In this document: one piece after another, positions 2,745 through 6,105 of the stretch
Layout: each line of letters begins with the position of its first letter
Numbering within the stretch: position 1 is the stretch's first letter
Source of the DNA: Bacillota bacterium
GTDB lineage: Bacteria > Bacillota > Sulfobacillia > JAJYWN01 > JAJZPE01
Length of the DNA: 36,590 nucleotides
Assembly (NCBI GenBank): GCA_021811325.1
Contig: JAJZPE010000012.1
Coordinates: 1-36,590 of the forward strand
Reading direction: 5' to 3'
Made by a program: the position numbers and the translations under genes
Notes under the pieces: generated by a model
The model's input: the letters and a program-made list of their open reading frames with translations, nothing else
What the model was told of the DNA's origin: nothing
The model's database searches: none

Positions 2745-5252
2745 TTACTTGACGACGATGTTGGCCAGGCGGTCGGGCACGGCGATGACCTTGACGACCT
2801 GCTTCCCGCGGACGAGTTCCTGCACCCGGCGGTGCTTCAGGATGAGCTCGCGGAACATCTCCTCGGACAGGCCCGACGGCACGTTCAGCCGGTCGCGGAT
2901 CTTGCCGTTGATCTGGACGACGATCTCGACCTCGTCGACCTTCAGGGCCCGCGGGTCGTAGATCGGCCAGGACTGCAGGTGCACGCTGCCCTGCCGGCCC
3001 ATCATCGACCAAAGCTCCTCGGCCAGGAACGGGGCGAAGGGCGCGAGCAGCAGGACCAGCTTCTCCACGGCCTCGGCGACGCCGGCTCTGTTCTGCTGGG
3101 CCTCCGGCACCTCGTCCTGGTACTTATGAAGGGCGTTGACCAGCTCCATGAAGGCGCTGATGGCCGTGTTGAAGTTGTAGCGCTCCTCGATGTCCTCGGT
3201 GGCCCGCTTGATCGTCACGTGGGTGACCCGCCGCAGCTCACGCTCGGCCGGGCCGAGGGGCGCCGCGCTCGACCGGGCGGCGGCCGCCTGGCGCCCGCCG
3301 GTCCCGAACGTCTTGAGCATCTCGGCGTTGGCGGCCACGAGGCGCCAGACCCGGTTGATGAAGCGATAGGCGCCCTCGACCCCACGGTCGCTCCACTCCA
3401 GTTCTTTCTCGGGCGGCGAGGCGAAGAGGATGAACAACCGGGCCGTGTCGGCCCCGTACTTATCGATGATCTCGACCGGGCTGACGATATTTCCCTTGGA
3501 CTTGGACATGGCCGCCCCGTCCTTGAGGACCATCCCCTGGGTCAGGAGGTTGCGGAAGGGCTCGACCTCGTCCAGGAGGCCCGCGTCGTGCAGGACCTTG
3601 GTGACAAAGCGCGAGTACAGGAGGTGCAGGACGGCGTGCTCGATGCCCCCGGTGTACTGGTCGACGGGCATCCAGTAGGCCGCTTCCTGCGGGTCGAAGG
3701 CCACGTCGTCGTTGCGGGCCGAGGCGTAGCGTAGGTAGTACCAGGAGGAGCAGACGAAGGTGTCCATCGTGTCGGTCTCGCGCCGGGCCGGACCGCCGCA
3801 AGTCGGGCAGGTCGTCTCGACGAACTGCTTCGAGCCGGCCAGCGGGGACTGGCCCGCTCCGGTGAAGACCACGTCGTCGGGCAGCAGGACGGGCAGGTCC
3901 TTCTCGGGCACGGGGACGATGCCGCACTTCTCGCAGTAGACGACGGGGATGGGGGCGCCCCAGTAGCGCTGGCGGGAGATGAGCCAGTCGCGCAGGTGGT
4001 AGTTGACCCTGCGGACGCCCAGGCCCTTCTCCTCGACGAAGTCGGCGATGCGGGTCTTGCCGACCTCGTTGTCGAGGCCGTCGTATGGCCCCGAGTTGAC
4101 CATCTTCCCCGGCCCGCTGTAGGCCTGGGGCGTCGCTTCATCCAGAGGCTCGCCGGCGGGCTGGATGACCACCCGGAGGGGGAGCCCGAACTTCTTGATG
4201 AACTCGAAGTCGCGCTGGTCGTGGGCGGGGACGCCCATGACGGCGCCGGTCCCGTACTCCATCAGCACGTAGTTGGCAATCCAGATGGGCACGGCCTCAC
4301 CGTTCAAGGGGTTGACGGCCCGGGCCCCGATGAAGAGGCCCTCCTTGACGGTCTCGGACGACGTCCGGTCGATCTCGCTCATCTTGCGGACCCGCTCGAC
4401 GAGGGCCTTCGCCGGCCCCTCGTACTCGGTCCCCTTGGTCAGCTTCTCGACCAGCGGGTGCTCGGGGGCGAGGACCAGGAAGGTGACCCCGTAGATGGTG
4501 TCGTGCCGGGTGGTGAAGACCGGGATAGGGTCACCGGTCTTCTCGACGCGGAAGGTCAGCTCGACCCCCTCGGAGCGGCCGATCCAGTTCTCCTGCATCG
4601 TCCGGACGCGCTCCGGCCAGCCGGAGAGCAGCGACAGGTCGGCCAGCAGCCGGTCGGCGTAGTCGGTGATCTTGAAGAACCACTGCTCGATCTCTTTCTT
4701 CGTGACCACGGAGTCGCAGCGCCAGCAGCGGCCGCCCTCGACCTGCTCGTTGGCGAGGACGGTGGCGCAGGACGGGCACCAGTTGACGGCGGCGCTCTTC
4801 TTGTAGGCCAGGCCGCGCTTATAGAGCTGCAGGAACAGCCACTCGGTCCACTTGTAGTAGGCCGGGTGGCAGGTGGCCACCTCGCGGTCGAAATCGTAGC
4901 TGATGCCGAGCGTCTGGAACTGCTCGTGCATGGTGGCGATGTTCTGGTAGGTCCACTCGGCCGGCGGGATGCCGTGCTTGATGGCGGCGTTCTCGGACGG
5001 CATGCCGAAGGCGTCGTACCCGATCGGGTGCAGGACGTTGAACCCGTTCATCCGCTTGAAACGGGCGATGACGTCCCCGATGGTGTAATTGCGGACGTGG
5101 CCCATGTGCAGGTCGCCGGACGGATACGGGAACATCTCCAGGGCGTAGAACTTCGGCTTCGCCGGGTCCACCTTGACGTGGTAGATCCCCGATTCGTCCC
5201 AGGCCCGCCGCCACTTCTGGGCGACAGCCTTGAACTCATAACGGTCTTCCAT
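2745..5252 (-). CDS. leuS: leucyl-tRNA synthetase
   Basis: It charges tRNA-Leu with leucine in the cytoplasm. The 835-residue length fits bacterial LeuRS. In order: class I signature HMGH in the segment [15 protein letters not shown], a zinc-binding insertion with CPSC and CWRC pairs, the CP1 editing domain ending near [10 protein letters not shown], a second Cys cluster (CEKCG, CPTCG), the KMSKS-type loop MSKSKGN, an anticodon-binding helical domain, and the C-terminal domain with [10 protein letters not shown]. The ATG at 5252 ([10 protein letters not shown]) was chosen because GGAGG lies 6-7 bases upstream and the family starts here; a longer in-frame reading only enters the T-box leader and tRNA. 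Expression is very likely controlled by the T-box at 5310-5683, and the gene ends in an intrinsic terminator at 2675-2707. Confidence 0.97.
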
Positions 5253-5322
5253 GGTTGCCCTCCGTTTTTCGGGCGTCTCGTCGAGCGGCGCCTGCGACCA
5301 CGGGCCGCCAAAAGCAAAAGGG

Positions 5323-5349
5323 CCCCTCGTCCCGGTCAGGGACGAGAGG
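5323..5349 (-). terminator. regulated terminator of the leuS T-box
   Basis: CCTCTCGTCCC and GGGACGAGGGG pair over 11 bp with one T-G pair around the loop TGACC, followed by CCC and a T-rich tail. Its 5' arm overlaps the region the antiterminator uses, as expected for a T-box. Confidence 0.88.
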
Positions 5350-5374
5350 CTTCTCCCGTGGTACCACCCTACTT

Positions 5375-5479
5375 GATAAAGAAAAGCAATTTGTGGAGCC
5401 GATGGGGATCGAACCCACGACCTCGTGAATGCCATTCACGCGCTCTCCCAACTGAGCTACAGCCCCACGAATCTTTATC
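5375..5479 (-). repeat. 8-bp inverted repeat enclosing the tRNA gene in the T-box leader
   Basis: GATAAAGA (5479-5472) and TCTTTATC (5382-5375) are exact complements on the minus-strand RNA. They enclose a 5-base spacer, the complete 73-base tRNA-Ala, and an 11-base spacer. The helix occupies the place of T-box Stem III, directly before the antiterminator linker. Whether it forms in vivo is inference. Confidence 0.75.
5394..5466 (-). tRNA. tRNA-Ala (anticodon GGC)
   Basis: The minus strand gives a full 73-base cloverleaf: acceptor GGGGCTG/CGGCTCC, D-arm GCTC...GAGC, anticodon stem CGTGA/TCACG with loop ATGGCAT (anticodon GGC at loop positions 3-5), and T-arm GTGGG/CCCAT with loop TTCGATC. 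The discriminator is A. CCA is not encoded: the genome continues CAA. The acceptor has G-T and T-G pairs, in line with Ala identity, though the typical G3-U70 pair of tRNA-Ala is the G3-T70 seen here. No promoter lies between Stem I of the leuS leader and the tRNA, so the tRNA should be made from the leuS promoter. Confidence 0.96.
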
Positions 5480-5689
5480 CGCTTGTCGGCCTCTTAACGC
5501 TGGCCCCGCGGCGCCGGTTACTGGGCTTCGCCGGCACGGCTCCCGGGCGAGTCCCGCCGCCACCCGCCGCCGGCTTGCACCATCCGCCGGCTCTCTACGG
5601 GTCGAGTGGGTCTGGCGTTACTCCCGATCCTCGCCTTGACCTTATTCGTCGAAAAGGCGCGCGGCCTTGCCGCGAACGCTACAAATGAC

Positions 5690-5718
5690 ATTATAGCCGC
5701 AGGGAAGGTCGTTGTCAA
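5690..5718 (-). promoter_or_regulatory. consensus sigma-A promoter for T-box/tRNA-Ala/leuS
   Basis: A perfect TTGACA (5718-5713) and a perfect TATAAT (5695-5690) are separated by exactly 17 bases. Transcription would start near 5683, just before the T-box Stem I. It lies in the short gap after the rsfS stop (5737). Confidence 0.93.
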
Positions 5719-5736
5719 GTTGACCGGGGACTGCGT

Positions 5737-6105
5737 CTATCGGCTGGCGGCCTGCGCGGCGGGCATTTCCACGGGCTTGGCGTCACCCCACAGGCGCTCG
5801 AGGTTGTAGAATTCGCGGCTGATCTCGTCAAAGATATGCACGACGACATCACCGTAGTCAAGCAGGACCCATCCGGCCTTGTCGGCCCCTTCCCGGTGCA
5901 GCAAGCGGACCCCTTCGCGCTCGAACTTCTCCTCGACGCGGCCGGCCAGGCCCTGCACGTGGGTGCTCGAACTGCCGCTGCAGATGACGAAGTAGTCGGT
6001 CACCAGCGTCAGCTCGGTGAGGTCGAGGACGACGATGCGCCGTCCCTTCCGCTCATCCAGCCCTTCCGCCGCCAAACGGGCCAGCTCCGCTGAGGTTCTA
6101 CCCAT
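5737..6105 (-). CDS. rsfS: ribosomal silencing factor RsfS
   Basis: RsfS (YbeB/Iojap family) binds ribosomal protein L14 and blocks subunit joining when nutrients are scarce. At 122 residues it has the usual size. It carries the family core VVLDLTELTLVTDYFVICSG, then TSHV-like STHVQGL, GWVLLDYGDVVVHIF and the C-terminal REFYNLERLW. The ATG at 6105 has AAGGAGG seven bases upstream. It follows the LCP gene by 34 bases and is probably cotranscribed with it, the usual Firmicutes order. Confidence 0.96.
   Translation of the reverse strand: MGRTSAELARLAAEGLDERKGRRIVVLDLTELTLVTDYFVICSGSSSTHVQGLAGRVEEKFEREGVRLLHREGADKAGWVLLDYGDVVVHIFDEISREFYNLERLWGDAKPVEMPAAQAASR

Follow-up and report, generated by a model that had tools for sequence, protein, structure and literature searches.

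The window analysed here is the whole of a 36,590-nucleotide stretch of DNA from a Bacillota bacterium (assembly GCA_021811325.1, contig JAJZPE010000012.1, positions 1 to 36,590), and the subject is the leader on its minus strand, to which all window coordinates below refer, between rsfS (6105-5737) and leuS (5252-2745). The leuS gene codes for a leucine--tRNA ligase of 835 amino acids (TIGR00396, 1097.9 bits, cutoff 548.4). The leader is preceded by a putative sigma-70 promoter, TTGACA-17-TATAAT (5718-5690, 12/12 matches, with 0.1 expected in shuffled sequences), the sole promoter-like site on either strand within 5200-5800. It contains a T-box, matched over the entire Rfam model RF00230 (model positions 1-219) at 5640-5335, with 89.3 bits and E=3.6e-20. 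T-boxes are known as RNAs that bind transfer RNAs (tRNAs) in trans. In this leader a complete tRNA-Ala(GGC) gene (5466-5394) lies inside the T-box, in the loop of Stem III, and the same arrangement was found in at least 98 loci, which represent roughly a hundred species from Bacillota, Chloroflexota and a number of further phyla.

The leuS T-box leader and its Stem III

A preliminary description of the leader had named a promoter, Stem I with a CUC specifier, a Stem II-like segment, a tRNA-Ala(GGC) gene between two complementary octamers, an antiterminator and a terminator, and all of these were recovered in place or within a few bases of it. In the RF00230 alignment Stem I extends from 5634 to 5539 with the distal AGAGA and GGUG loop motifs, and it presents the leucine specifier CUC (CTC in the DNA, 5551-5549), read both from the sequence and from the alignment. 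Stem II with an AGUA (S-turn) motif follows at 5536-5512, and the Stem IIA/B region, CGCGGGGCCAGCGUUA, at 5510-5495. The 5' half of the discriminator purine motif, RRRxG, is AAGCG (5484-5480). It directly precedes the 5' strand of Stem III, GATAAAGA (5479-5472), which is seen in the sequence, in the alignment and in the local fold. The 3' strand, TCTTTATC (5382-5375), is the exact reverse complement of the 5' strand and is followed by the 3' half of the motif, AA (5374-5373), which is conserved in relatives. This order, 5'-RRRxG-Stem III-AA-3', is the discriminator motif of T-boxes (PMC7583486; PMC7778990). The antiterminator (5369-5339) carries the T-box bulge UGGU (5366-5363) according to both sequence and alignment, and a competing intrinsic terminator of 12 pairs, followed by CCTTTTGCTTTT, lies at 5350-5322.

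The tRNA gene itself was identified by ARAGORN and by the tRNA model RF00005 (61.9 bits, E=3e-11, cutoff 29), with the anticodon GGC. It has the alanyl-tRNA synthetase identity elements G3.U70 and A73, while CCA is not encoded (CAA). The RF00230 alignment pairs Stem III as GGAUAAAG/CUUUAUC and leaves 88 bases in the loop, which hold the complete tRNA-Ala(GGC). Since the two discriminator halves flank the tRNA-bearing helix exactly in the window, the tRNA is the loop of Stem III and not its replacement. The preliminary description, which set the tRNA in the place of Stem III, is supported with this refinement, as both the base helix, formed by the two octamers, and the purine motif are kept. 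A local minimum-free-energy fold likewise yielded the Stem III helix together with the cloverleaf arms. In all structural features open to a test the leader is a T-box: the discriminator RRRxG-Stem III-AA and an antiterminator with a UGGN bulge were found in the window and in its relatives.

The leuS leader is the only one of 17 RF00230 matches in the host genome (2.8 Mb) that contains a tRNA. The RF00230 model has a curated gathering cutoff of 93 bits, and a permissive search was used to see the match in the window. Because this T-box scores below the cutoff, a search at the gathering threshold shows the tRNA alone. The other T-boxes of the host score 29-92 bits, likewise all under the Rfam cutoff, so that none of the 17 would be picked up by standard annotation.

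Recurrence and conservation of the arrangement

GTDB species genomes were scanned for any tRNA T-arm followed 24-54 bases on by a T-box core, the amino acid being left unspecified. This gave at least 120 loci, and ARAGORN placed a tRNA-Ala(GGC) at the expected position in the great majority of the matches listed. About 95 listed matches, the window and two relatives make up the set of 98 loci described below; one duplicate, one CGC variant and matches lacking a T-box or a tRNA were left out. The set comprises 49 loci of Bacillota plus 3 of the window's family, 28 of Chloroflexota, 6 of Thermomicrobiota, 3 of Armatimonadota, 2 each of Coprothermobacterota and Atribacterota, and 1 each of Caldisericota, Actinomycetota and Pseudomonadota, with 2 unassigned; the loci labelled Actinomycetota and Pseudomonadota come from metagenome bins. 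A leuS gene lies at most 3.5 kb downstream in 94 of the 98, and the other 4 have only 89-1673 nt of sequence left. Within the window's family two other genomes share the arrangement, at 84% and 77% identity. Chance or artefact was rejected as an explanation in view of the about 98 loci in many phyla, the covariation described below and the occurrence in three independent genomes of one family. The idea that any tRNA may occupy T-boxes was also rejected, as the amino-acid-blind pattern gave only tRNA-Ala in real T-boxes. For the scan matches to Ser, Leu, Gln, Asn, Thr, Gly and Pro tRNAs no leuS was found downstream, and an RF00230 scan of the non-Ala matches L096, L154, L124, L145 and L155 found no T-box.

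In evenly drawn samples the pattern was present in 24 of 61 genomes from the window's class, a count that includes one chance match, in 33 of 149 genomes of its phylum and in 16 of 121 genomes of the phylum of a Sphaerobacter genome. These frequencies are lower bounds because leaders of the type of L187 exceed the reach of the pattern. The leader L187 (G027, 1067-1455) is an intact T-box of 389 nt (110 bits) that carries the tRNA plus about 100 more bases in Stem III.

The T-box identity extends to the relatives. RF00230 spanned model positions 1-219 in all 8 loci picked for diversity, with CUC at the specifier place in each, and in 7 of 8 loci of a second set at 52-120 bits, the eighth (L115) being cut by a contig end. 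Among the scores were 133.2 (L044), 130.7 (L045), 119.7 (L055), 105.5 (L130), 103.9 and 94.7 bits, down to 52 (L072); in the set picked for diversity the leaders of Thermosyntropha and Desulfotruncus reach 133 and 131 bits. The tRNA region falls inside the RF00230 match in all these end-to-end loci. A simple motif locates the specifier in 85 leaders, and in 84 of these, with leuS as the downstream gene, it reads CUC (Leu). Behind the T-box core 80 of 89 relatives have a U-tract.

The pairing of Stem III was tested on 81 unique pairs of strands that had been assigned by the flanking motifs alone, blind to pairing. The cells were paired in 76.9%, against 56.2% with strands exchanged between loci and a maximum of 62.3% in 2000 shuffles. 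A second count on 67 sequences, with about 14 badly anchored rows left out, gave 85.8% paired against 63.3 +/- 1.3%, with two-sided changes at all 7 pairs, and sliding one strand by 1-3 columns lowered pairing to at most 45%. Both counts show strong covariation in the helix that encloses the tRNA. Neither of the two conditions that the preliminary description had named as refuting it was borne out. RF00230 fits Stem I/II, and the flanking complementarity is kept in relatives through compensatory changes, while the tRNA generally lacks a promoter of its own: of 75 strong promoter-like sites, 59 are found before Stem I, at a distance of 120-240 nt upstream of the tRNA, and only 4 within 80 nt.

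The embedded tRNAs comprise 67 distinct sequences with compensatory changes in the acceptor stem. G3.U70 and A73 are kept in all 98 tRNAs, CCA is encoded in 75 of the 98 loci and U stands at position -1 in 75 of 98. The 5' linker from the start of Stem III to the tRNA has a median of 12 nt and mostly measures 9-13 nt. By pattern the embedded gene is the sole tRNA-Ala(GGC) gene in 22 of 23 genomes of the window's class and in 52 of 55 others where the pattern applies. Judged from its sequence, the tRNA is under selection as a tRNA. The identity elements, the usual CCA and U-1 and the near-universal single copy together indicate that it should be a working tRNA gene and not a merely structural insert. 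Its carriage in cis, as first described, is supported, with the second refinement that the tRNA is more than a structural element.

Variants and origin

In related leuS T-boxes without a tRNA (L194, L207 and others) the Stem III at this position is short and of the usual kind. Ten leaders of Chloroflexota (L042, L062, L079, L100, L119, L120, L139, L141, L147 and L148) were observed to contain a second tRNA-Ala (CGC) between promoter and Stem I, which makes them a two-tRNA operon plus T-box. In L142 a tRNA-Ala(CGC) at 4459-4387 on the minus strand has its own promoter, TTGACA-TAGCAT, immediately in front of it and is joined directly to the 3' half only of a leuS T-box. This state looks as if recombination or deletion between two similar tRNA-Ala genes had removed Stem I/II and the GGC tRNA; L142 belongs to a metagenome bin and may reflect an error of assembly.

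On a LeuS tree of 115 rows, for which sampling was biased toward presence of the trait, the arrangement is scattered, with at least 20 changes, 8 of them forced by starred branches. The tree cannot distinguish between a single ancient origin followed by numerous losses, transfer together with leuS, and repeated gains. The first of these, perhaps combined with transfer, is favoured only because tRNA, place and downstream gene are always the same.

A proposed leader with two functions and the alternatives

We propose that one leader RNA very probably does two jobs, as a leucine T-box controlling leuS and as a precursor of tRNA-Ala(GGC). In this model, for which we infer co-transcription, tRNA processing, tRNA-Leu-dependent switching and essentiality, a single transcript starting at the promoter at 5718-5690 would serve both jobs. 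RNA polymerase would first make Stem I and Stem II, able to bind tRNA-Leu through the CUC specifier, next Stem III with the tRNA-Ala in its loop, and then either antiterminator or terminator. Stem III is a conserved element of the T-box discriminator, while its loop may vary freely. The base helix would hold RRRxG, AA and the antiterminator in register, with the tRNA folding atop it as a separate domain. Following the established T-box mechanism, leuS would be made only when uncharged tRNA-Leu holds the antiterminator. As the tRNA lies upstream of the terminator, it would be made in every round of transcription, whether this stops in leucine-replete cells or reads through into leuS. RNase P and 3' processing would then release the tRNA, for which the 5' linker and the -1 base look normal. 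A single tRNA-Ala(GGC) gene is hard to lose, which would explain the deep conservation.

Some observations weigh against this model. The RF00230 score of the window lies slightly below the gathering cutoff. The global minimum-free-energy structure of the entire GC-rich leader differs from the T-box fold (z -0.42); for such a leader the global fold is uninformative, and homology and covariation are the basis for the structure. The draft genome of the host (248 contigs, 34 tRNAs detected) yielded no tRNA-Leu(GAG), which would read CUC directly; Leu(CAG) and Leu(TAA) are among the tRNAs identified. A strict pattern found tRNA-Leu(GAG) in 11 of 29 relatives, and the missing gene is likely a gap in the draft assembly. 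Finally, in L180 (G036) and L188 (G052) the tRNA-Ala(GGC) persists before leuS while the T-box core has decayed. In L180 GGGTGGTACC is replaced by GGATAACACC and the Stem III complement remains. With the tRNA kept beside a degraded T-box, the two parts are separable.

Leaders of this decayed kind, together with the CGC tRNA of L142 with its own promoter, are what would be expected if the tRNA gene were an independent neighbour with its own promoter, inserted into a dead T-box leader. They occur as a derived state; for the main group this explanation is contradicted by the covariation and by the position of the promoters upstream of Stem I, and it is the least credible of those considered. Barely more credible is a role of the nascent tRNA as ligand in cis, its encoded 3' ACCA pairing with the UGGU bulge to tune basal antitermination. 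ACCA is encoded in 75 of 98 loci, the discriminator base is always A and the bulge is UGGU in the window and in the models shown, but the window and its family encode ACAA or ACAG, a pre-tRNA has no free 3' end at that place, and with a single exception the leaders have a Leu specifier, so that the conserved ligand is tRNA-Leu in trans.

Two other explanations concern whether the tRNA takes part in regulation. Release of the tRNA by RNase P and 3' processing inside Stem III could be part of the control, either because the cut separates the sensor (Stem I/II) from antiterminator and leuS, resetting or committing the switch, or because the leuS mRNA gains a processed 5' end of different stability, as in the cleavage of the Bacillus subtilis thrS leader. 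The short 5' linker of narrow length range is in line with this, U at -1 in 75 of 98 loci fits a normal RNase P site, cleavage of thrS/thrZ T-box leaders upstream of the terminator is established (PMC3997798), and retention across phyla is compatible with selection for such coupling. Transcription past the terminator takes seconds, however, and is probably complete before processing, and tRNA and T-box have separated in some lineages (L180, L188; L194, L207), so the coupling is not indispensable; we consider it possible but rather unlikely. A two-way device, in which excision of the tRNA cuts the riboswitch, ends sensing and sets the fate of the leuS mRNA while binding of tRNA-Leu alters processing of the tRNA-Ala precursor, is somewhat more doubtful still. 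The explanation to which we incline, by a small degree, is neutral: a tRNA gene would once have entered a loop that tolerated it, come to be the sole copy and so been trapped, with no contribution to regulation. This is in agreement with the single-copy status of the gene, with the existence of both tRNA-less leuS T-boxes and T-box-less tRNAs, and with the variability of Stem III loops among T-boxes (PMC7583486). Against it, though not decisively, a neutral state from which many lineages have escaped would hardly be expected to last as long as this arrangement has in Bacillota, Chloroflexota/Thermomicrobiota, Armatimonadota, Atribacterota, Caldisericota and Coprothermobacterota. Such neutral trapping is compatible with the core of the two-function model, as it concerns only why the arrangement is kept.

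Compared with known systems, the leader resembles T-box riboswitches of the leuS type (RF00230) in its Stem I with CUC, Stem II, Stem IIA/B, RRRxG-Stem III-AA, UGGN antiterminator, terminator and downstream aminoacyl-tRNA synthetase gene. It differs from an ordinary T-box in that its Stem III loop is formed by an entire tRNA gene with a different specificity (Ala), and the leader would also be a tRNA precursor. According to a 2020 review, T-boxes carry curious insertions in every domain, with structure and function unknown (PMC7583486). Known T-boxes with extra sequence in Stem III share with this leader the insert in the discriminator helix; their inserts are unidentified, whereas here the insert is a tRNA gene of working type conserved across phyla. 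The thrS/thrZ leaders of B. subtilis, cleaved by RNase J/Y (PMC3997798), would share an endonucleolytic cut between sensor and terminator, but they have no tRNA in the leader and are cut by different nucleases. The embedding also departs from simple co-transcription of a tRNA with a protein gene. In the thrU-tufB unit of Escherichia coli one promoter serves both tRNA and protein gene, and the tRNA is excised from the precursor, while here the tRNA is nested in a regulatory RNA and would be made before the regulatory decision.

No description of a T-box with a tRNA inside was found in the open-licence literature, and look-ups in the T-box database paper, the 2020 review, Wels 2008 and a 2025 riboswitch survey gave none either; it may have been mentioned before in other publications. 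The arrangement means that a widespread class of T-boxes carries a tRNA gene as a domain of its own, which gives a concrete identity to one kind of unexplained Stem III insertion. In most genomes tested it is the only gene found for the tRNA reading the alanine codons GCC/GCU, which would make a regulatory leader essential for translation. It also provides a natural system for studying how a processed tRNA in the core of a riboswitch is accommodated or exploited, and the age and breadth of the pattern make it testable in cultured species, e.g. Syntrophomonas wolfei, Desulfofundulus and Dictyobacter. Annotation pipelines hide such nested RNAs, either because tRNA and T-box appear as separate entries or because the T-box fails the cutoff and is overlooked.

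In two Coprothermobacterota loci (L066 and L087) a tRNA-Asn(GTT) lies on the opposite strand, about 190-260 bases upstream of the embedded tRNA-Ala. In the window the leader stands in the gene order obgE - nadD - LCP-family protein - rsfS - leuS, with a comEA-like gene next (10301-1963).
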